This document shows positions 47,588-64,000 of a stretch of 64,000 bases of DNA, in pieces (the stretch's first letter is position 1; every line of letters starts with the position of its first letter). This DNA comes from Rhizobiales bacterium GAS188. GTDB taxonomy: Bacteria > Pseudomonadota > Alphaproteobacteria > Rhizobiales > Beijerinckiaceae. A model generated the notes under the pieces. That model was given only the letters and a program-made list of their open reading frames with translations. It had not been told where the DNA came from and made no database searches. Location of the stretch: assembly GCA_900104855.1 (NCBI GenBank), contig FNSS01000001.1, positions 4,836,001 through 4,900,000 of the forward strand. The letters run 5' to 3'. A program made the translations under genes and the position numbers.

Positions 47588-48736
47588 ATGATGAGGGCTC
47601 CCGTCAAGATCAGGCTTGCGGCACTGGCGCTCCTTATCAGACTCGCCCCTCAGGCTGCTGCAGGGTGGCTCGAATCTGCAAGGTCTGCCTATGCCCGGAA
47701 GGACTATACGTACGCGCTCCGTCTCTTTCGCCTGCTGGCAGGTCGTGGTGACGCCTCCGCCCAATACAGCCTCGCGTTCATGTACCATTCCGGTCAGGGC
47801 GTGCCGCAAGACGTTGCCGAAGGGGTGAATTGGTATCGCAGGGCCGCCGACCAAGGCCACGCGCGAGCTCAAGTCAATCTCGGGTCCATATACGCGCATG
47901 GTCAAGGTGTGCCGCAGGATTTTGTCGAGGCCGCGAAATGGTTTCGGCTGGCCGCCGACCAGGGTTACGCCCGCGCTCAAACCTATCTCGGGTCGATGTA
48001 CACACTCGGACAGGGCGTGCCGCAAGACTTCGCCGAAGCGCTGCAGATGTACCTCGAGGCTGCTCGACAGGGCGACGTTCCAAGCCTCTACAATCTCGGT
48101 GTCATGTTCGACAGGGGTCAGGGCGTGATGCAGGACTTTGTCGAAGCCGCAAAATGGCTTCGCTTGGCGGCTGACCGCGGCTATTCCCCCGCCCAGGCTA
48201 ATCTCGGTTCCATGTACGCGCACGGCCAAGGGGTGCAGCAAGATTATCTCGAGGCGGCGAAATGGTTTCGGTTGGCTGCCGACCAGGGCTATGCGCGAGC
48301 CCAAACCAATCTCGGATCCCTGCATTCACTCGGCCACGGCGTGCCGCAGGATTTTGCCGAGGCAGCGAAATGGTTTCGACTGGCTGCGGACCAGGGCCAC
48401 GCACGCGCCCAAGCCCATCTCGGCTCCCTCTACGCCCGCGGCCAGGGCTTGCCATGCAGCTATACCGACGCGGTGAATTGGTATCGCAAGGCTGCTGACG
48501 CGGGCGACGCGCTTGGCCAGTACTACCTCGGGGTCATGTATTATGAAGGCCTGGGGGTGCCGCAAGATTACTTGCTGGCGCATAAATGGATGAACCTTGC
48601 TGCCGCCTGCTTTGCTCCCGCGGAGAACGAGCAGCGCGTCAAAGCGATTGAGGAACGCGACCTGCTGGCCAGCAAGATGACCCCGGCACAGATTGCCGAG
48701 GCGCAGCAGCTTGCGCGCGAATGGGCGCCGAAATAG
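47588..48736 (+). CDS. Sel1-repeat (TPR-like) protein, secreted
   Basis: 382 residues: a signal peptide (hydrophobic 9-23, Ala-Ala-Ala-Gly) followed by eight consecutive 36-residue Sel1 repeats with a consensus 'A(Q)xxLGxMYxxGQGVPQDFxE' and 'AAKWFRLAADQG'. The repeats are so alike at the DNA level that recombination between them is likely. Sel1 proteins are scaffolds for protein-protein contacts in the periplasm or in signalling and are common in surface-related loci. It comes directly before the collagen-modification genes on the same strand, though not contiguous with them. Confidence 0.9.
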   Translation: MMRAPVKIRLAALALLIRLAPQAAAGWLESARSAYARKDYTYALRLFRLLAGRGDASAQYSLAFMYHSGQGVPQDVAEGVNWYRRAADQGHARAQVNLGSIYAHGQGVPQDFVEAAKWFRLAADQGYARAQTYLGSMYTLGQGVPQDFAEALQMYLEAARQGDVPSLYNLGVMFDRGQGVMQDFVEAAKWLRLAADRGYSPAQANLGSMYAHGQGVQQDYLEAAKWFRLAADQGYARAQTNLGSLHSLGHGVPQDFAEAAKWFRLAADQGHARAQAHLGSLYARGQGLPCSYTDAVNWYRKAADAGDALGQYYLGVMYYEGLGVPQDYLLAHKWMNLAAACFAPAENEQRVKAIEERDLLASKMTPAQIAEAQQLAREWAPK

Positions 48737-49456: not shown

Positions 49457-49693
49457 GCGGAGGCAGCTTCCGCTCCGGACCGCTTCGGCTACGACTTATT
49501 GGTCAAGACATTCTTGGATAAGCTCGTTTACAATGGGAAGGGCTTTCGGGAGGAGTTGGGTCATCCGGTGGATAAGGTGCTGTCGACCTATGCCGGAGCG
49601 ATGATTGTCCGCTTCGATCGCGTCGAGGCCATTTGGAGCGCGAGGTCGCGGATGCAAGGCTCAAGCGCGTTGGCCGTGGAGCCCCCTCCATGA
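49457..49693 (+). other. Short protein-like open stretch before the glycosyltransferase
   Basis: In the same phase as the preceding gene, after its TGA, the frame remains open and reads as plausible protein ('FGYDLLVKTFLDKLVYNGKG', 'VDKVLSTYAGAMIVRFDRVE'). It has no ATG; a TTG at 49499 is the first alternative start. It could be a small gene, a remnant, or the rest of the upstream gene separated by a stop codon. No homology is recognised. Confidence 0.3.
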
Positions 49694-52461
49694 AAACCAT
49701 CGGCTTGTGCATGATCGTGAAGAACGAGGCCGGCATCATCCGGAAATGCCTTGCCGCTGCGCTCCCGCTCGTCGATTACGTTCTGGTCGTTGACACCGGC
49801 TCGGAGGACGGCACGCAGACAATCGTCCGCGACTTTCTGGCGGAGCATGAGATGAGAGGCGCCGTCATCGACGAGCCCTGGCGGGACTTTGCCTATAATC
49901 GTACATTTGCATTGGAGCGACTACGGGATGTCGACGATATCGACTATGCCCTGATCGTCGACGCGGACGATCAAATCGTCTTGGACGCCGGCTTCGATCC
50001 AAAAGACTTCAAGTCGCAACTGCAGCACGATCTCTATGACGTGCAGATTTCCTACGGATCCGTGTCCTACCTCCGAGCGCATATCTGCAACAGCAAGCTT
50101 CCGTTCTCGTTCAAGGGAGCGCTCCACGAATACCTCGAGGCGCCGCCGGGCGAACTCTCGCGCGCGCCCGCAAAGGGATTTCACATCCAGATCGGCGGCG
50201 GCGGCGCGCGCAGCCGAAATCCGAGAAAATATCAGGACGATGCGGCCTTGCTCGAGCGCGTCTTGTCGAGCGAGACCGATCCGTTCCTGATCTCGCGCTA
50301 CACATTCTATCTGGCCCAGAGCTATAAGGACTGTGGAGAGCGCGAAAAGGCGCTGGTCAACTATCTGAAGCGCGCCGAGCTCGGCTACTGGACCGAGGAA
50401 ATCTATGTCAGTCTCCTAGAGGCGGGGAACCTCATGGCGGCGCTCGAGCGACCGTTCGACGAGGTGATCGCCACCTATCTGCGCGCTTCCGACCTGGTGC
50501 CCACGCGCGCCGAGGCGCTGCACGCGGCGAGCCTTTGCTGCCGCAACCACGGCAGGAATGCCGATGGCCAGGAATATGCGCGCCGTGGCATCGAGCTCAA
50601 GCCACCCGGTGACGGGCTTTTCGTGCAAGACTGGGTCTACGACTACGGCATTCTCGACGAATTCGCGATCAACGCCTTTTGGGCGGGTGCCTATCGCGAG
50701 TCGCTCGATGCCTCATTGAAGTTGCTCGCCAGCGATAAATTGCCGTCATCGATGGTGAAGCGCATAGCCGCCAACGCACGCTTCTCCGCGGAGAAGCTGC
50801 CGACAGTCAAACCGCCGGATCTCGGGAGGCTGGGTGCCGAGAGCCTGATCGACCAGCACAAGCTCGTGCCGCAGCGGTCGCTTCGCTCCCGCCTGAAGGG
50901 GACGCCGAAGGTGCTGGTGGCCATCCTGGCGAAGCAGAAGGAGCCGGCGCTGCCGCTCTATCTTGAGTGCATCGAGGCGCTCGACTATCCGAAATCATCG
51001 ATCGTGCTCCATATCCGCACCAACAACAACACCGACCGGACGGTGCAGATTCTCCGCGACTGGGTGGCGCGGGTGGGTCACCTCTATGCCGATGTCGAGT
51101 TCGATGCGAGTGACGTTGACGACCGGATCGAGGCGTTCGGCGAGCATGAATGGAACGCGACGCGATTCAGGGTTCTCGGACGCATTCGCGAGCTGAGCCT
51201 GCGCCGGGCGCTCGAGCTCGGCTGCGAATTCTATTTCGTGGCCGATGTCGATAACTTCATACGCCGCGCCACGCTGCGCGAGCTGGTGGCGCTCGATCTG
51301 CCGATCGTCGCACCGCTGCTGCGCTCGATCACTCCCGGAAGATTCTATTCGAACTATCATGCCGAAATCGATGCGGCCGGATATTACAAGAGCTGCGATC
51401 AATATCTCTGGGTCCTCGCGAGGCAGGTACTCGGAGTCGTGGAAGTGCCTGTGGTTCACTGCACCTATCTCGTCCGCGCTGATGTGATCTCGGGGCTCAC
51501 CTATGAGGAGAAGAGCGATCGGCACGAATACGTCGTGTTCTCCGACAGCGCCCGCAAGGCGGGCATCCCGCAATATCTCGATAATCGCCAGGTCTATGGC
51601 TACATCACCTTCGGCGAGGGTAGCAGCGACCACGTCGCGGACGGTATTGAGCAAGCGCGCGCGCTGCTGCGCGAAGCGGGGGATCCGGACGTCCTGGCCG
51701 CCGAACGGCCGGCAGCACCCGGCGCGGCAACGGGCATGCCGATCCATGTGATCAATCTCGATCGCAGCACCGACCGCCTGGCGGAATTTCAAAAGCGCAA
51801 TGCGTATTTGCGCAATGTCGTGCGGTTCCCCGGCGTTGATGGGAGGATGCTTGATAAGGAAAAGCTGATCGAAGAGAAAGTCATCGCGCGCGATCTTTGC
51901 TACTCCGCCGGCACCCTGGGTTGCGCAATGTCCCATCTCGCGCTGTGGAAGATGGCGGTCGACGAGAACCGAGCGATCACCGTCGCCGAGGACGACGGCA
52001 TATTTTGCCGCCGCTTCGATCAGCGAGCGAAGGCGCTAATAGCCGGCCTTCGTGCGGACTGGGATTTCGTGATGTGGAGCACCAACTACGATTTGTTTAC
52101 GTGGGTCGATGTGCTGCCGCAAGGTACCGGCGCCAAAATCCAATTCTATCAAGGTCGACTGCTTGAGAATCTCGACAAGTTTCAGGGCAACGAGATGGAA
52201 CCCGTTTTGCTAAAGCTCCTTCATGCGTTTGGCGCTATCTGCTATTCTGTGTCACCCAAGGGTGCGCACGCATTGCTTGACTTTTGTTTGCCGCTGGGCC
52301 CGGCGCCTGTTGATTTTCCGGGCTTTGGCGTGAGAAACCTGAACGAAGGGATAGATAGCGTCATGTGTGGGGCCTACCCGTCCCTCCAAGCCTTTGTGTG
52401 TATACCGCCCTTAGTTATTACTGCAAATCGCCCTGAGGACTCGGTGAGGAGAAATCCGTGA
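49690..52461 (+). CDS. Three-module glycosyltransferase with collagen galactosyltransferase architecture
   Basis: 923 residues from ATG 49690. Module 1 (1-200) is a GT2 domain ('GLCMIVKNEAGIIRKCL', DxD at 91-93), followed by a helical TPR-like stretch (about 215-380). Module 2 (about 402-680) is a second GT-A domain: 'VLVAILAKQKEPALPLYL', 'ALDYPKSSIVLHIRTNNNTD', 'YFVADVDNF' (DVD near 519-521) and 'DNRQVYGYI'. Module 3 (from about 683) is a GT25 domain: 'PIHVINLDRSTDRLAEF', 'TLGCAMSHLALWKMAV', and the EDD motif at 767-769. Modules 2 and 3 match, motif by motif, the two GT domains of human collagen beta-galactosyltransferase COLGALT1 as I recall it. A collagen-like protein is encoded 3 kb away, so it is the probable substrate; the sugar and the acceptor residues are inference. 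First gene of a run with a methyltransferase and an SGNH hydrolase. Confidence 0.88.
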   Translation: MKTIGLCMIVKNEAGIIRKCLAAALPLVDYVLVVDTGSEDGTQTIVRDFLAEHEMRGAVIDEPWRDFAYNRTFALERLRDVDDIDYALIVDADDQIVLDAGFDPKDFKSQLQHDLYDVQISYGSVSYLRAHICNSKLPFSFKGALHEYLEAPPGELSRAPAKGFHIQIGGGGARSRNPRKYQDDAALLERVLSSETDPFLISRYTFYLAQSYKDCGEREKALVNYLKRAELGYWTEEIYVSLLEAGNLMAALERPFDEVIATYLRASDLVPTRAEALHAASLCCRNHGRNADGQEYARRGIELKPPGDGLFVQDWVYDYGILDEFAINAFWAGAYRESLDASLKLLASDKLPSSMVKRIAANARFSAEKLPTVKPPDLGRLGAESLIDQHKLVPQRSLRSRLKGTPKVLVAILAKQKEPALPLYLECIEALDYPKSSIVLHIRTNNNTDRTVQILRDWVARVGHLYADVEFDASDVDDRIEAFGEHEWNATRFRVLGRIRELSLRRALELGCEFYFVADVDNFIRRATLRELVALDLPIVAPLLRSITPGRFYSNYHAEIDAAGYYKSCDQYLWVLARQVLGVVEVPVVHCTYLVRADVISGLTYEEKSDRHEYVVFSDSARKAGIPQYLDNRQVYGYITFGEGSSDHVADGIEQARALLREAGDPDVLAAERPAAPGAATGMPIHVINLDRSTDRLAEFQKRNAYLRNVVRFPGVDGRMLDKEKLIEEKVIARDLCYSAGTLGCAMSHLALWKMAVDENRAITVAEDDGIFCRRFDQRAKALIAGLRADWDFVMWSTNYDLFTWVDVLPQGTGAKIQFYQGRLLENLDKFQGNEMEPVLLKLLHAFGAICYSVSPKGAHALLDFCLPLGPAPVDFPGFGVRNLNEGIDSVMCGAYPSLQAFVCIPPLVITANRPEDSVRRNP

Positions 52462-52571
52462 GCCTGCCGTCCGATGCCAGAGGGGTAGGCGGCATGAGCG
52501 GATGGGCAGCTGCGCCATGCCGATACACAGACTGGTTGTAGGCGTCCACGTAGCGGGGAGCACATGAGGCC

Positions 52572-53180
52572 GTGAGCAACACCTTCTCGGAAATCTACAA
52601 AAAAAACGAATGGGGCTACGGTTCAGGCGTTGGCTCGCTGCCGCTGAATAACGTCGACTATATCAAGTTCATCAAGGTATTCATCGAGCGAAACAGGATG
52701 AGCTCCATTGTCGATTTTGGCTGCGGCGACTGGCAATTTTCCCGCTTCATCGATTGGGCCGGCATCACTTACACGGGGTTTGATATCGTCGAAGACGTCA
52801 TCGCGCGCAATCAGACCTTATTCGGCCGTGACACAATCTCGTTTCGCGTTTTCAAGCCGGCGACCGAGCTTCCTCGTGCCGATCTCTACATCTGCAAGGA
52901 CGTGTTTCAGCATCTCCCGAACGGCCTGATTAGGCAATATCTGCGCTTGTTCAAGGCGCGGGCTCGCTTCCTGCTGATCACCAACGACGATTGGCCCGCC
53001 GAGGAGCTGCTCAACGCAGAGATTGACGAAGGTGGCTGGCGGCCGCTGCGACTCGACCGGGAGCCGTTTTCCGAGGTCGCGCCGGTCGTCCTCTCCTGGA
53101 TGATTGAATGGGGAGGCTGGAAACCGACGCGGAAGGCGACGTGCCTTATAGCGGGGAACTCGGCGACCATAAATCGTTGA
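52572..53180 (+). CDS. SAM-dependent methyltransferase (class I)
   Basis: 202 residues from GTG 52572. 'SSIVDFGCGDWQFSRFIDWA' is motif I (residues 45-64), and 'ADLYICKDVFQHLP' the later acidic and aromatic motif of the fold. The recognisable set is only the SAM-binding half; the acceptor is unknown. It lies between the collagen-type glycosyltransferase and an SGNH hydrolase on the same strand, so O-methylation of a sugar is a reasonable guess. Lower GC than its neighbours is apparent at the start. Confidence 0.8.
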   Translation: MSNTFSEIYKKNEWGYGSGVGSLPLNNVDYIKFIKVFIERNRMSSIVDFGCGDWQFSRFIDWAGITYTGFDIVEDVIARNQTLFGRDTISFRVFKPATELPRADLYICKDVFQHLPNGLIRQYLRLFKARARFLLITNDDWPAEELLNAEIDEGGWRPLRLDREPFSEVAPVVLSWMIEWGGWKPTRKATCLIAGNSATINR

Positions 53181-53235
53181 GAATTCGACCCCGGAACCAG
53201 GGCGGCCGGCAGCATAAGCGTTTAGAGGAAGGCTC

Positions 53236-54141
53236 ATGCCTAGGACAATTCGTCTTAAGGAGTTTCCCAAATCGACCGAGATTTCCAACGTGCCGCCAGA
53301 CTGGTACGTCAATGCGGGCGATTCATCACTTACGAAACAAGAGTATAAAGCGACCACGGATGAGAATGGCTTCGTGCTTCCGGAACCCGTCAACAGCAAG
53401 GACTGTCCGAGGATCATATTCCTCGGAGATAGCGTCATCGAAGGCATGTACGCCCGCCCCGAGAACCGCGTCTGCTCGCAAATCCAGAATATTCTCAAGA
53501 GAGAATCGGGGGTGGAGGTCTCCGTTCTGAACGCTGGTTATAGCGGTGCGACAGTATTGCATTCGTTCAATACGTTTATGAACAAAATCATCCCGCTTCG
53601 CCCCGCCGCCGTGATCTTGATGACAGGAATGGTCGATTACGACGTTGCCCTGGTGAAGGCCAGCTTCTGGAGTCGCGATTGCTGGATCGAGCCGATCGTC
53701 GATTTGGACCAGCGCAATCAGTGGCGAGATCCTGACAAAAGAAGCGAACCGTCATTCGATGACCAGTCGAGGATGCTCGCGATGTTCTCAGCAGCGAGCC
53801 GGATTTTCGATCTGCCTTTATGGTACGCGACGATACCACACAGACAAGTCTATCATGGCGAGTACGTCGCGAAGACGTTCAAGGACCGTGTCGGTTTTGA
53901 TCGCGAGGTCAGCCTGCGCCGGGGAGTGAATCACGCCACAAGACAAACGGCGATCCGAGAGGACATGCCGCTTTTCGATCTCGAATCGAACTTGAGCGAC
54001 AGAGCGGACATATTCTATGACATGTTCCATCTCAACGCGGTCGGAGGCGAGGCGGTCGCGCGGAGCTTGATCGGATGCGGCTTCGCAGAGCGGCTACAGG
54101 CCGCTATTCGGGAGGTCCAAAGGCATGACAAGGTCACGTGA
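53236..54141 (+). CDS. SGNH/GDSL-type hydrolase
   Basis: 301 residues. 'IIFLGDSVIEGMYARPENRV' has the catalytic Ser in block I (GDS, residues 64-66), 'VLNAGYSGATV' is block II, and 'DMFHLNAVGGEAVAR' holds the catalytic Asp and His of block V (262 and 265). Block III 'LMTGMVDYD' lacks the usual Asn (GxND), so oxyanion stabilisation may be altered. There is no signal peptide, so it may act on intracellular acylated sugars or glycans. It directly follows the methyltransferase and may be the third member of a glycan-decorating operon. Confidence 0.82.
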   Translation: MPRTIRLKEFPKSTEISNVPPDWYVNAGDSSLTKQEYKATTDENGFVLPEPVNSKDCPRIIFLGDSVIEGMYARPENRVCSQIQNILKRESGVEVSVLNAGYSGATVLHSFNTFMNKIIPLRPAAVILMTGMVDYDVALVKASFWSRDCWIEPIVDLDQRNQWRDPDKRSEPSFDDQSRMLAMFSAASRIFDLPLWYATIPHRQVYHGEYVAKTFKDRVGFDREVSLRRGVNHATRQTAIREDMPLFDLESNLSDRADIFYDMFHLNAVGGEAVARSLIGCGFAERLQAAIREVQRHDKVT

Positions 54142-54162
54142 TCGACCTGCGGGGGTAGCCTC

Positions 54163-54210
54163 GTTCTTGATGATCATGTTTAGGCAGATTCTCTGGCCTT
54201 CGCTGTTCAT
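54163..54210 (-). pseudogene. N-terminal remnant of a GT2 glycosyltransferase
   Basis: From ATG 54210 on the minus strand the frame reads 'ICLNMIIKNEA', the exact start motif of GT2/TPR glycosyltransferases, and then loses all similarity within a few residues. It resembles the N-terminus of the glycosyltransferase at 49690 and overlaps the tail of the SGNH gene on the opposite strand. Only about 16 residues are recognisable. Confidence 0.55.
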
Positions 54211-54296
54211 CTCCCCTCCACCGCTCGCTCGCTTCGCGCGACCTTTCGGTTGTCGCGATTCGCCGACAAGCCCCACATCTCGAGGCGTGCAGCCGC

Positions 54297-55217
54297 TCAC
54301 CTGACGTCAAACAAGCTTCGGACCCGGCCAGGCAGTAGTCCTGGAGCTCCGAGCTCGCTGCAACTATTCTCCCATAGATGCAGATAATCCTTCAGCGGTG
54401 CGGCGCTCCTCGTTGGCCAGCGGTTCAGCGCACCCAAATCAACGATAGATGCGCTATTCGTCTCGAATTCCGACACCATCGCGGGAACTGCAGCGACGGT
54501 AGGGCCGCTCATGCCCGTCTGCGTCTCGAGCTCGCTTCTGTTGGCCCAGAACCATGAAGCCATGTCGGGGTGCTCCCCGAGGAGATCTTTGTATTTCTTG
54601 AGCGTGTCGTTCCGGTATTTATCAATGTAGCGACTGAACGGCTCGTCGCCGGTGAACGGCGCCTTTTTCGCCCATCCTCGAGCCATGATGGCAAGGCCGC
54701 GAATTGAAAACGATTCGACGAACACTTCCTCGAGCCATTGGCAAGGCACCTGGGATTTGGCGTCCGGTCCCCAGCTGTTGCAGAACACATGGCCAAGTTC
54801 GTGCCCGAACTGATAGGCAAGCCGCGACCAATCGCGCTCGCTAATGTCGACAATAATCCAGGCCGTATCGGGCTGATCATTGGGGTGCAGCCATATGGAG
54901 GGCGGCGTGGCGCCCCCATCATTGTGGGCATCAACAAGAATCTTGGCGGGCTGGCGATCCGAGACGAGCTTCAGTCCAGTCAGACAGGCATCACGCATTC
55001 TGGTAATGACCTGAGCCGCCGCACCCGGCAGCGACGGTGCCCAATTGCCTCTCACCGATACGGGGGCGGACAGCAACGTCGGCTTCGTGGGGGCCGGCTG
55101 AGCCACGCTATCGATCGTCAGGCAAGCCGATGAAAATCCGCCGGCGAGCAGACGCAAGCCCTGGCGCCGTGTCACGTCCCGGCATCCGGGCAGAGCAGTT
55201 GGGGCTGCTTGTCGCAT
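54297..55217 (-). CDS. Secreted HExxH metalloprotease-like protein (putative)
   Basis: 306 residues from ATG 55217; in-frame starts at 55253 or 55319 would add up to 34 residues. The N-terminus has a Tat-like signal ('TRRQGLRLLAGGFSSA'). 'YQFGHELGHVF' gives HELGH at 139-143, and Glu-Glu follows about 20 residues later ('WLEEVFVES'), the pattern of gluzincin zinc peptidases. Overall similarity to a named family is not recognised. It begins about 100 bases after the collagen-like gene on the same strand, so a role in trimming that exported protein is inferred. Confidence 0.6.
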   Translation of the reverse strand: MRQAAPTALPGCRDVTRRQGLRLLAGGFSSACLTIDSVAQPAPTKPTLLSAPVSVRGNWAPSLPGAAAQVITRMRDACLTGLKLVSDRQPAKILVDAHNDGGATPPSIWLHPNDQPDTAWIIVDISERDWSRLAYQFGHELGHVFCNSWGPDAKSQVPCQWLEEVFVESFSIRGLAIMARGWAKKAPFTGDEPFSRYIDKYRNDTLKKYKDLLGEHPDMASWFWANRSELETQTGMSGPTVAAVPAMVSEFETNSASIVDLGALNRWPTRSAAPLKDYLHLWENSCSELGAPGLLPGRVRSLFDVR

Positions 55218-55319
55218 CTGCAACCGACATATCGAATTTGAAGCAAGTTGCATATTCCCGAAAAGGCTCGGAGCGCGAGGCCATCCGGCATCGCGCTCCG
55301 AAGGATTCTTGACGGGCAA

Positions 55320-61013
<5,694 letters not shown>

Positions 61014-61188
61014 CTACGCTACCCCTTGAACCTTGGTGTATCGAGCCTGGACTGCCTCGTCTCAAGTCACCGTGCGCACTCGGAAGCAGACATGTGACCT
61101 GCGACCACCGCCGCCTCGTCGCGCTGCCGTGGCCCGACAGCTCGCACAATTGCGGCGCCAAAAGTTAGCCTGTGATCGCGGTGACGGG

Positions 61189-61208
61189 CTATATTCCCGA
61201 GGTTATAG
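61189..61208 (-). promoter_or_regulatory. Dyad CTATA-N10-TATAG upstream of the collagen-like gene
   Basis: CTATA at 61189-61193 and TATAG at 61204-61208 form a perfect 5-bp inverted repeat with a 10-base spacer, 176 bp upstream of the collagen ATG. Read on the minus strand the 29-bp block around it matches 22 of 29 positions of the copy before the exporter. A regulator binding site shared by both genes is inferred. Confidence 0.6.
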
Positions 61209-61407
61209 ATTTAACCGACTTCGAGGGCGTGCCACTGCCTGCGAGCTAAAGTCTTGAACTTGCAGCAATCATTGAAAATGCGACGAGTCATTGCCGCGGC
61301 TCACGCCCCAAGGAGAGGTCGGCGGGATGTGGCAAATTCGGCTTACCCGCATGAGCAGAAAACAAGCGCGCGCAGGTAAAAACGTGCAAGATCAGCGGAT
61401 AAGCGGT

Positions 61408-61427
61408 CTATAACCTGGGATATATAG
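61408..61427 (+). promoter_or_regulatory. Dyad CTATA-N10-TATAG upstream of the exporter gene
   Basis: CTATA at 61408-61412 and TATAG at 61423-61427, 10-base spacer, 153 bp before the exporter start and in the opposite orientation to the copy at 61189. The two copies face outward, each toward its own gene. Confidence 0.6.
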
Positions 61428-61580
61428 CCGATCGTTCGTATCCGGGTCATATTTCTCGCCGGATCTTGGGGCCTCGAACCGGCCCGGCTCGCTTTTGCGT
61501 GGAGCTAGGGTGCAAGGACGCCGCGAGTTACGGCGGATGGCTTGGTCGCTCGCGAATGGCCCCTGAAGCGGAGCTGACGT

Positions 61581-63875
61581 GTGAGCGCTGAGCCCATCAC
61601 TCGCCTGCCAGAGATACGCGCCGGCACCTTCGCTTCGGCATTGCCCGATGCTGCCAGTCCCGGCGCCACCGCGACCGAGCGCGGCGTTGCCATGCGGCGC
61701 CGGCTCGACGCCGTGGTTGCGGTCGCGCATTTCCATGGCACGGAGCTCGACCGTCGCGATTTTCGTCCCTCGCCCGGCGCGGAGGTGCCGAGTGCCGCCT
61801 CCCTCGTCACCTGGCTGCGTGAGAGCGGGCTCTGGGCCAAGAGCGTGCGGCTGCGCTGGCGCCAGCTCTTCCGCCTGGGATCGGACGCTCCGGTCGTTCT
61901 CCTCTTGAGCGATGGCGGCGCCTGCCTGCTCGTCGCGCGCGATGCGGATCGTGACGTCGTCCTCGTCAGGGACCCGCATGGATCGCCGGGGGACCCGCCC
62001 GTTGCCATCGACGAGTTGCGCCTCGCTCAGGCGTGGAAGGGAGAAGCGTTGCTGGTGCGCCGCGAGCGCGGGGCGGCGATCGACGAGCAGCCGTTCTCGC
62101 TGGGTTGGCTCGCGCATCTTGTCCTGCGCGAGCGCAGGAACCTTCGCGAGGTCGTCATTGCGTCGCTGACGCTGAGTGTGCTGCAGATCCTCCCGCCGTT
62201 TCTGGTGATGATCGCCATCGACAAGGTGCTCACGCACCAGAGCATGTCGACGCTCGGGATGATTGGGCTGATCCTGGCGCTTGCGACCGCATATGAGACC
62301 CTTCTGGGCTATGCCCGCCGCGAGATCGTCGAGGTGATGTCGACGCGGCTCGACGCGCGCCTCAACCTGCATGTCTTCCGCCGGCTATTGGCGCTGCCGA
62401 TCGACTTCTTCGAGCGCACGCCGACCGGCGAGTCGACCCATAAGGTGTCGCAGATCTTCAAGATCCGCGATTTCCTCACGGGCAAATTGGTCAGCACCTT
62501 CCTCGACGTGTTCACGCTCGTGATCCTGCTGCCCTTCCTCTTCTGGATGAGCGCCACGCTCGCCTGGATGGTGCTGGCGGCCTCGGTCGCGGTCGCCTTG
62601 ATGGTCTTTGCCTTCCTGCCGGCAATCGCACGGGTCTGGGCGAGGCTCATCGTGGCCGAGAACAAGAAAGGCGCAGTGCTGGTCGAGAGCGTGCATGGCA
62701 TGCGGACCATCAAGTCGCTGGCGATCGAGAATGCCCGCAAGCAGGAATGGGACGAGCGCGTTGCCGAGGCCGGGCAGGCGCGCCTCGATGCCGGCCGGAT
62801 TTCCAATTGGGCGCAGACGCTGGTGACGCCGATCGAGCGCTTCATCGATCGCGGCGTGCTCTTGATCGGCGCCTACGTGATCCTGACGATGCCGAGCGGG
62901 ACGACGGGCATCACGGCCGGAAGCCTCATCGCCTTCATGCTGCTCGGCACGCGTGTCGCGAGCCCGCTCATCGGCATGGCCAAGCTGATGCAGGACATCC
63001 AGGAAGTGCGCACCTCGGTATCGCAAGTGGCCGACGTGCTCAATCATCCGACCGAGACTGCCGCGGCCCGCGGCGGCCTGCGTCCCAGGTTCGCCGGCGC
63101 CATCACCTTCGACGAGGTGACCTTCAGCTATCCGGGCACCAAGGCCACGGTATTGGAGCGGGTCAGCTTCGAGGTGCCGGCCGGCACCATGCTTGGCCTC
63201 GTCGGTCGCAGCGGCTCCGGCAAATCGACCATCACGCGGCTGCTGCAAGGCATCAATCGCGACTACAGCGGCTATTTGAAGATCGACGGCTCGGATCTGC
63301 GCGAGATCAACCTCACGCATCTGCGGCGCAGCTTCGGCGTCGTGCTGCAGGACAACTTCCTGTTCCGCGGCAGCGTGCGCGACAACATCGTCGCCGGCCG
63401 GCCGGGCCTGACCCTGGAGGACACCGTGCGCGCTGCCCGGCTGGCCGGCGCGGAGGAGTTCATCGAACGTCTGCCCCGCGGCTACGAGACCTGGATCGAG
63501 GAGGGATCGGCCAATCTCTCCGGCGGGCAGCGGCAGCGCCTGGCGATCGCCAGGGCGCTGGTCGCCGATCCGCGCATCCTGATCCTGGACGAGGCGACGA
63601 GCGCGCTCGACCCGGAGAGCGAGGCGCTCGTGAACGCAAATCTCATCCGCATCGGCAAGGGACGAACCATGGTCATCGTCTCCCATCGTCTGTCCTCGCT
63701 CGTCGATTGCGACCAGATTCTGGTCATGGAGAAAGGGGCAGCGGTGGATATCGGCCCGCACAGCGAGCTGCTCGAACGCTGCGCGATCTACCGCCAGCTC
63801 TGGGCGCAGCAGCACCGGCACCTCGAAGGCGGAGCGCGGCCCGCGACGCTGAAATCCGTTCCTCAGACGAGTTGA
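61581..63875 (+). CDS. Type I secretion ABC transporter (HlyB-like, with inactive C39-like domain)
   Basis: 764 residues from GTG 61581. An N-terminal C39-like domain (about 35-150) lacks the catalytic Cys, so it is the non-proteolytic kind that docks unfolded substrates. A six-helix membrane region (about 180-470) and an ATPase domain follow: Walker A 'GRSGSGKST', Q-loop 'VVLQDNFLFRGSVRDNIV', signature 'LSGGQRQR', Walker B 'ILILDEATSALD'. Five bases after its stop the adaptor gene begins. The likely cargo is the divergent collagen-like protein, which has no N-terminal signal; RTX repeats, the usual type I hallmark, are absent from that protein. Confidence 0.9.
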   Translation: MSAEPITRLPEIRAGTFASALPDAASPGATATERGVAMRRRLDAVVAVAHFHGTELDRRDFRPSPGAEVPSAASLVTWLRESGLWAKSVRLRWRQLFRLGSDAPVVLLLSDGGACLLVARDADRDVVLVRDPHGSPGDPPVAIDELRLAQAWKGEALLVRRERGAAIDEQPFSLGWLAHLVLRERRNLREVVIASLTLSVLQILPPFLVMIAIDKVLTHQSMSTLGMIGLILALATAYETLLGYARREIVEVMSTRLDARLNLHVFRRLLALPIDFFERTPTGESTHKVSQIFKIRDFLTGKLVSTFLDVFTLVILLPFLFWMSATLAWMVLAASVAVALMVFAFLPAIARVWARLIVAENKKGAVLVESVHGMRTIKSLAIENARKQEWDERVAEAGQARLDAGRISNWAQTLVTPIERFIDRGVLLIGAYVILTMPSGTTGITAGSLIAFMLLGTRVASPLIGMAKLMQDIQEVRTSVSQVADVLNHPTETAAARGGLRPRFAGAITFDEVTFSYPGTKATVLERVSFEVPAGTMLGLVGRSGSGKSTITRLLQGINRDYSGYLKIDGSDLREINLTHLRRSFGVVLQDNFLFRGSVRDNIVAGRPGLTLEDTVRAARLAGAEEFIERLPRGYETWIEEGSANLSGGQRQRLAIARALVADPRILILDEATSALDPESEALVNANLIRIGKGRTMVIVSHRLSSLVDCDQILVMEKGAAVDIGPHSELLERCAIYRQLWAQQHRHLEGGARPATLKSVPQTS

Positions 63876-63880
63876 CCGCC

Positions 63881-64000
63881 ATGGCCAGCAGCACCGCCCT
63901 CATTCCGCTGAGCCCGAGGCAGCAGCGCGCAACGCAGGAGCTGACGTCAGCGGCGCTCCTCGAATACCAATCCCCCACTGCCGCCTTGCTGGCCATGCCG
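63881..64000 (+). CDS. HlyD-family membrane fusion protein, 5' end (cut by window edge)
   Basis: From ATG 63881, 40 residues are seen ('SPRQQRATQELTSAALLEYQ', then 'SPTAALLAMP'), starting just after the ABC exporter stop. The opening, which precedes a membrane helix in adaptors ('ALLEYQSPTAALLAMP'), and the gene order are as expected for the periplasmic adaptor of a type I system. The rest is outside the window, so this is mostly inferred from position. Confidence 0.7.
   Translation, partial: MASSTALIPLSPRQQRATQELTSAALLEYQSPTAALLAMP

Follow-up and report, generated by a model that had tools for sequence, protein, structure and literature searches.

Glycosylation of bacterial collagen is itself already known, and collagen-modifying enzymes are said in the excerpted text of a preprint to be known from certain bacteria (PMC11838735). 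The closest precedent for the locus described here is the SgtA-BclA3 pair of Clostridioides difficile, in which SgtA, according to the excerpted paper, adds beta-GlcNAc to threonines of the BclA3 collagen repeats and is encoded just upstream of bclA3 (PMC7157674). Excerpts of further papers describe the C-terminal domain of human COLGALT1 as the active one, with a Glu-Asp-Asp core at its metal site (PMC13382579), and the cuticle collagen of Riftia as stabilised by glycosylated threonine and not by hydroxyproline (PMC6953826 and PMC11766948, citing Mann 1996). Here, we analyse a window of 64,000 nucleotides from Rhizobiales bacterium GAS188 (bases 4836001-4900000 of an 8.2-Mb contig in a genome of 9.09 Mb) in which genes for a giant collagen-like protein, a three-part glycosyltransferase (GT), an ABC exporter with its adaptor, and a protein with an HExxH motif lie close together. 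We consider it probable that this locus is dedicated to the synthesis, O-glycosylation, and export of the collagen. A previous sequence-only reading of the stretch had made the same proposal, which is supported by sequence and gene linkage, and every gene that it had listed (the 1897-residue collagen, the GT, a methyltransferase, an SGNH hydrolase, the HExxH protein, the exporter, and the start of the adaptor) is present among the open reading frames (ORFs). What we observed directly are the genes, which domains and catalytic motifs they encode, and that GT, collagen, exporter, and HExxH protein are linked in a conserved manner. Among the titles and abstract starts of open-licence articles in PMC, we found no description of a bacterial COLGALT homologue together with a collagen and a type I exporter.

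The repeat of the window's collagen is strikingly uniform: Threonine occupies the Y position in 545 of the 552 Gly-X-Y triplets, and the X position is alanine (283), serine (197), or histidine (66) in 546 of them. Proline is nearly absent (4 in X and 2 in Y), and lysine occurs in neither X nor Y of any triplet. Scans with Pfam and NCBIfam matched this protein to collagen models only. Long open frames also exist on the strand opposite the gene; within the collagen frame, codon position 3 varies by 1.4-1.8 bits and positions 1 and 2 of glycine and threonine codons by 0-0.09 bits, a pattern of variable third and fixed first and second positions that shows the frame to be under purifying selection at the protein level. 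An in-frame stop directly before the ATG leaves no room for a hidden N-terminal extension, and neither inspection by eye nor hydropathy revealed a signal peptide.

The GT joins a GmaR/SunS-type GT2 domain and TPR-like helices to a homologue of the two-domain COLGALT1, which consists of an Anp1/LH3-GT-like domain followed by a GT25 domain. In the Pfam scan, GT2 and GT25 scored over the cut-off and Anp1 below it. The ORF opens at an alternative TTG start at 49633, from which we count the residues of the protein, and its homologues match from around 10-20 residues further in, so that the ATG at 49690 chosen by the sequence-only reading is favoured as the actual start. Residues 424-813 match human COLGALT1 across both of its GT domains (phmmer E 3e-34), residues 19-174 match GmaR (E 7e-10), and the middle domain matches LH3 (E 4e-13); the match of mimivirus R699 is much weaker (E 0.004). 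Foldseek on an AlphaFold model placed COLGALT1 on ranks 1-8 (E 1e-28 to 2e-26), followed by LH3, SunS/ThuS, and R699. The earlier label "COLGALT-type" is therefore borne out as homology over two domains. The motifs DADD, DVDN, and EDD are kept in close homologues, save for the loss of DVDN in two loci (L031 and L032), and the catalytic EDD is found in the window and in 7 of the 8 other aligned rows with letters at this place; in the eighth (L023), a methyltransferase stands where the others have GT25. The enzyme thus has both the domain order of a COLGALT (an LH3-like accessory domain, then the catalytic GT25) and its EDD metal core. What it does not share is the hydroxylysine acceptor: With no lysine in the neighbouring repeat, the acceptor must be a different one, and we therefore speak of a COLGALT homologue and not of a COLGALT.

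The best named matches of the GT come from Mesorhizobium, where 6 loci encode full-length homologues with 63-67% identity (that of L016 in two pieces). Among 385 genomes sampled from the class, the whole COLGALT part is present in the window's own genome only (E 1e-10), and one other genome has two GT25-only matches; viral contigs searched with this part gave 37 pattern matches and no relatives. Among 8 relatives' proteins that were scanned, single ORFs unite GT2, Anp1, SGNH, and GT25 domains (L034, Bradyrhizobium RD5-C2) or GT2, Anp1, and methyltransferase domains (L023), and others carry GT7, GT1, pyruvyltransferase, or sulphotransferase modules. These modules give the impression of a constant first sugar step combined with an outer glycan that varies.

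Among the best 80 of 501 GT relatives in a genome collection (scanned among stretches matching GT patterns), loci selected by GT sequence alone have a "T-type" collagen near the GT in 52 cases, with this type defined by a threshold of our own as at least 12 Gly-X-Y triplets with threonine in at least 30% of Y positions. The distance between the two genes has a median of 1.0 kb and a maximum of 4.6 kb, with up to 10 kb covered. Stricter threonine thresholds lower the count (50 loci at 45%, 45 at 50%, 37 at 60%, and 19 at 90%), while any run of 12 Gly-X-Y triplets is found at 57 loci, Gly-rich non-collagens included. This adjacency spans several phyla, and the loci concerned include Mesorhizobium, Bradyrhizobium, Methylobacter, Microvirga, Methylobacterium, Planctomycetales, Solimonas, and Streptomyces. 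As a control, none of 9 GT25 loci in GT-carrying genomes has a T-type collagen; these are 9 of 10 matches, 2 of them on loci below 18 kb and all from one bacterial family as compared to the many phyla of the 80 GT loci, and the tenth (G067:C38) was left out, having matched the GT query, with its locus L121 also lacking a collagen. The counts are inflated by near-duplicates (L060/L117 are one locus, L120/L167 one genome, and L048/L115 one contig). Several contigs break off within the collagen repeat, which probably makes for an undercount of adjacency. One contig holds GT, collagen, and exporter together in the window, L016/L244, L025/L249, L015/L240, and L120/L167.

Two further kinds of GT neighbourhood were seen. 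In Streptomyces (L081-L091), 9 of 11 loci have a T-type collagen in the vicinity of a single-domain GT relative, and the N-terminal parts of the collagens of L085 and L090 contain a hydrophobic segment, possibly marking a Sec-exported counterpart. At L109, L112, L115, and L116, the GT relatives lie near Gly-rich, mostly GGX-type repeats that are not collagen-like.

The exporter's best NCBIfam model is HlyB (TIGR01846; 566 bits, below the cut-off of 725, over profile positions 2-692 of 694), and it is followed by an adaptor with an HlyD_3 match over the cut-off, which makes up the ABC-HlyD pair of type I secretion. In the window's family, 33 of 199 genomes have an exporter match at E 1e-150, and the identities of these matches show a gap between 57-62% (6 non-self genomes) and 48%. 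Of 198 non-self genomes, 6 thus have a close exporter; the GT is also present in 4 of these 6 (Fisher p 1.6e-4), and a collagen gene adjoins the exporter in 4 of the 6. By comparison, no collagen lies beside any of 25 exporters with 42-48% identity (taken from 37 listed places below 50%; 7 of these loci are shorter than 18 kb, and L171 and L174 extend less than 0.4 kb upstream of the exporter) or beside any of 7 paralogues in the window's own genome. An exporter of at least 56% identity is present in 17 of 20 GT-carrying genomes that we chose from the 80 GT loci, with 77% in Microvirga sesbaniae and 73% in Bradyrhizobium sp. JYMT SZCCT0180, and 14 of 16 loci from these genomes (the 17th being that of G118) adjoin a collagen. 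The two others come from Acidisphaera (L238) and Rhodomicrobium (L242), the latter on a contig that breaks off 145 bp upstream of the exporter and has the HExxH gene and the GT behind the adaptor. Overall, 18 of 22 non-self exporter loci with at least 55% identity adjoin a collagen, 11 of the 22 belonging to one tight, mostly Mesorhizobium clade. In a phylogenetic tree, the 19 collagen-linked exporters (including that of the window) and the 4 exceptions (L164, L169, L238, and L242) form one clade with support of 100/100 that is separate from the 25 other type I exporters and the 7 own paralogues. RTX repeats lie near 4 of the 25 non-collagen exporters; the window's repeat is Gly-X-Y and not the GGxGxDxxx of RTX adhesins.

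Behind the ABC-adaptor pair, a Sel1-repeat gene is present in 21 of the 22 exporter-clade loci. The same holds for 21 of 23 related loci that have an adaptor match but no collagen, which suggests that the ABC, HlyD, and Sel1 genes form a three-gene unit common to a wider subfamily of type I secretion. In the window's own genome, two type I exporters (G000:C1:4355468-4357387 and 1225578-1227497) are identical over their aligned part, perhaps through a recent duplication.

Candidate signals for this export route were found at the C-termini of some related collagens. TIGR03661, the type I secretion C-terminal target domain, scores over its cut-off in 2 of 10 scanned relatives' collagens (L117/L060 and L118), and the match was reproduced with the tails alone. 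The tails of L136/L120 link by profile to these TIGR03661-bearing tails (E 5e-6), and the Mesorhizobium-type tails link to those of L136/L120 (E 7.5e-5). At the other end of the protein, the head of the window's collagen aligns with the heads of other collagens at 12-28% identity, which we judged too weak for a domain family. DUF4347 stands at the start of 4 of the 10 scanned collagens (L016, L030, L119, and L167; E 1e-35 to 1e-40), and its conserved HG and SC motifs resemble by eye what we take to be a caspase-type dyad. Two other GT-linked collagens end in a Hint_2 domain (L106:692-1312 and, in Methylobacterium sp. B4, L046:11961-12584; Pfam E 1e-47 and 3e-43), which suggests another way of collagen processing.

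The HExxH protein, predicted to be a zinc peptidase, is conserved at H144, E145, H148, E168, E169, and E173 in all 19 rows of an alignment (the window and 18 others), that is, in its HExxH and a following WxEE motif. A nearly invariant Arg-Arg precedes the first hydrophobic stretch and by eye constitutes a Tat-type signal, which predicts a periplasmic location. The sequence-only reading had called this protein secreted; this is to be corrected in that the protein is predicted to be periplasmic and not to leave the cell together with the collagen. No Pfam or NCBIfam family covers it, and a profile search of the PDB with the alignment gave no match. Its structural model (pLDDT 81 overall, good in the core) has weak Foldseek matches to many zinc metallopeptidases, among them Grimontia collagenase with a TM-score of 0.42 by query; assignment to a known metallopeptidase family such as M1 or M9 was considered and rejected as neither sequence nor fold matched significantly. 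The gene is present in 6 of the 199 family genomes (E 1e-8), all of which have both the GT and a T-type collagen, and in 15 of the 80 GT loci. In the genomes that we searched, this family without a Pfam or NCBIfam entry was seen only where these collagens are. The methyltransferase has a 71% identical homologue beside the HExxH gene and GT of L108, and a 48% identical homologue of the SGNH hydrolase is embedded in the GT of L034, where it separates the Anp1 domain from the GT25 domain; we tie both genes to the system because relatives fuse such modules to the GT. The sequence-only reading had staked itself on these neighbours co-occurring in relatives, and they do so for GT and collagen, for exporter and collagen, and for the HExxH gene with both GT and collagen.

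Several results nonetheless weigh against a dedicated glycosylation and export system. On the side of the enzyme, no T-type collagen lies within reach at 28 of the 80 GT loci; at 9 of these, the contig ends less than 3 kb away in one or both directions. The GT has matches in 14 of the 199 genomes of the window's family, some of which cover a single domain, and the 14 GT loci of the 13 non-self genomes comprise 6 with a clear T-type collagen, 2 with borderline Gly-rich runs, and 6 with neither. Enrichment across whole family genomes is modest (a collagen in 8 of 13 GT-carrying genomes versus 54 of 185; p 0.026), probably since genes for unrelated collagens or Gly-rich proteins are present in many genomes, and adjacency at the level of the locus is the sharper test. 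The full GT model has low Foldseek TM-scores (0.28-0.29 by query), and its pTM of 0.45 (at a pLDDT of 82) makes the orientation of the domains unsure. For the HExxH model, Foldseek gave no significant match (best E 0.13, LTA4 hydrolase). If the GT built a surface polysaccharide or lipopolysaccharide (LPS) and the collagen were nearby by accident, the 28 loci without collagen would fit, and the last GT domain belongs to Pfam GT25, described there as acting in LPS biosynthesis. We regard this as distinctly improbable, given an adjacency in 52 of 80 loci across several phyla versus none at the 9 ordinary GT25 genes, the SgtA precedent, and the fact that the closest solved relatives, COLGALT1, LH3, GmaR, and SunS, all modify proteins.

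On the side of export, no type I signal model matches the tail of the window's collagen, and hhalign found no significant link between window-type tails and the others (E 0.16), so that export by the neighbouring exporter is argued from linkage and not from a signal of the protein's own. The 4 of 22 clade exporters without a visible collagen mean that the clade is not exclusive to collagen, and 9 of the 13 non-self GT-carrying family genomes have no close exporter. Furthermore, the GT-adjacent collagens of Streptomyces and Solimonas look Sec-exported (4 checked), and the GT therefore has no strict need for this exporter. Together with GT and exporter lying on separate contigs in G118, G137, and G183, much of this would fit a GT that glycosylates the collagen beside an exporter that serves another substrate and is its neighbour by chance. 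We find such a coincidence unlikely, since collagens adjoin 18 of 22 exporters of the clade versus 0 of 25 and 0 of 7 outside of it, 17 of 20 chosen GT-carrying genomes have the exporter, two relatives' collagens bear TIGR03661, the window's collagen has no visible signal peptide, and the split contigs break off within the collagen repeat, where assembly breaks are expected. The same lack of a signal peptide could also mean that the collagen is not exported at all, being either intracellular or a cryptic product of the repeat; this is highly improbable in view of the linkage to an exporter, the TIGR03661 tails, and purifying selection on the codons.

For the dedicated system that we favour, we infer each biochemical step, the sugars, the location, and the trimming from sequence. 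The collagen chain would be synthesised without a Sec signal, and the cytoplasmic GT2 domain would add a first sugar, GlcNAc by analogy with SgtA, to threonines in the Y position. The COLGALT-like domain pair would add the next hexose; by this analogy, the first GT domain probably performs the same kind of step as SgtA and the COLGALT-like part the one that follows. The methyltransferase and the SGNH enzyme might then decorate the glycan before the unfolded glycosylated chain crosses the ABC-adaptor pair and a putative TolC-type channel in a single step. Outside the cell, chains would assemble into a triple helix stabilised by glycosylated threonine in the way that hydroxyproline stabilises animal collagen, and the threonine glycans of Riftia fit such a role in the nearly proline-free chain of the window. 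Finally, the Tat-exported HExxH protein may cut the collagen, perhaps, as a speculation, at an N-terminal head that is still held in the channel, in analogy to LapG, which cuts LapA while held in this way. We propose the head because a type I substrate would have to remain partly in the periplasm for a Tat-exported protein to encounter it. A more far-reaching view, possible but doubtful in our eyes, is that of a bacterial collagen pathway with the maturation logic of animals (modify the unfolded chain, export, fold, trim) and a shared COLGALT-type enzyme, in which a nearly proline-free collagen, with a triple helix that depends on threonine-linked sugars, is glycosylated as an unfolded chain before type I export, tethered by its N-terminal head in the exporter channel, and released by a new family of Tat-exported metallopeptidases.

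The features of the locus are listed in Table 1. The HExxH gene lies directly behind the collagen stop, and the exporter gene is divergent from the collagen gene. In 3 sampled genomes of the same genus, neither the GT (E 1e-20) nor the exporter (E 1e-150) nor the HExxH protein (E 1e-8) had a match, so that the locus looks accessory. Downstream of the exporter unit lies an ORF that we take by eye to be an IS5-type transposase-like gene (L009:5660-6538, window-equivalent 67659-68537), and a further Sel1-repeat protein is encoded upstream of the GT (window 47588-48736).

Table 1. Features of the collagen locus in window coordinates.
Feature	Position	Strand	Basis or remark
Three-part GT	49690..52461	+	Pfam, phmmer, AlphaFold model and Foldseek, motifs
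Class I methyltransferase, perhaps glycan-modifying	52572..53180	+	Pfam Methyltransf_23
SGNH/GDSL hydrolase, perhaps (de)acylating the glycan	53236..54141	+	Pfam Lipase_GDSL_2
HExxH protein with Tat-type motif, predicted zinc peptidase	54297..55319	-	Alignment, model
Giant collagen-like protein, 1897 aa	55320..61013	-	ORF, Pfam Collagen E 9e-233
Collagen N-terminal non-collagen head, 112 aa	60678..61013	-	Alignment
Collagen repeat, 552 uninterrupted Gly-X-Y triplets, residues 122-1777	55683..60650	-	Triplet scan
Collagen C-terminal non-collagen tail, candidate type I secretion signal	55323..55682	-	No model recognises the tail
ABC exporter, collagen-associated type I secretion clade	61581..63875	+	NCBIfam, tree, neighbours
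HlyD-type adaptor (start)	63881..64000, on to window-equivalent 65281	+	HlyD_3 over cut-off
Sel1-repeat gene after adaptor	L009:3319-5103 = window-equivalent 65318-67102		Beyond window edge

If our reading is true, COLGALT-type collagen glycosylation would extend to bacteria and type I exporters would gain a collagen as substrate. The locus would also make it testable whether glycosylated threonine can replace hydroxyproline in a nearly proline-free triple helix, and its enzymes could allow glycosylated recombinant collagen to be made by way of bacteria. Compared to known systems, the export side recalls type I secretion of giant adhesins of the LapA/RTX type, in which an ABC transporter and an HlyD adaptor export a very long repetitive protein. 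Here as there, a long repetitive protein is encoded beside the exporter, with TIGR03661 tails in two relatives, but the presumed substrate is a collagen and not RTX, and a GT and modification genes are part of the locus. To our knowledge, type I export is not known for BclA of the Bacillus exosporium. That protein resembles the proposed product as a glycosylated bacterial collagen-like protein, as its excerpted description states (PMC8968730), but it is a Gram-positive spore protein. SgtA of C. difficile, likened by description, is similarly a GT-A enzyme encoded beside a collagen-like protein, with its sugar on threonine of the repeats; the window's counterparts are a GT-A domain with a DxD motif (DADD) and a Gly-X-Thr collagen, adjacent in the 52 of 80 loci. 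SgtA differs in having 358 residues, one GT domain, and a spore-surface substrate, and the excerpted account of SgtA-BclA3 mentions neither a COLGALT part nor a type I exporter nor an HExxH protein (PMC7157674). Mimivirus L230 and R699 likewise represent collagen glycosylation outside animals with an LH3-GT-like domain, whereas L230 is described in the excerpted source as working via lysine hydroxylation (PMC9614988). Human COLGALT1 (GLT25D1), finally, has the same two GT domains in the same order with EDD kept, but it acts on hydroxylysine, while the enzyme of the window is bacterial and has a GmaR/SunS-type GT fused in front.

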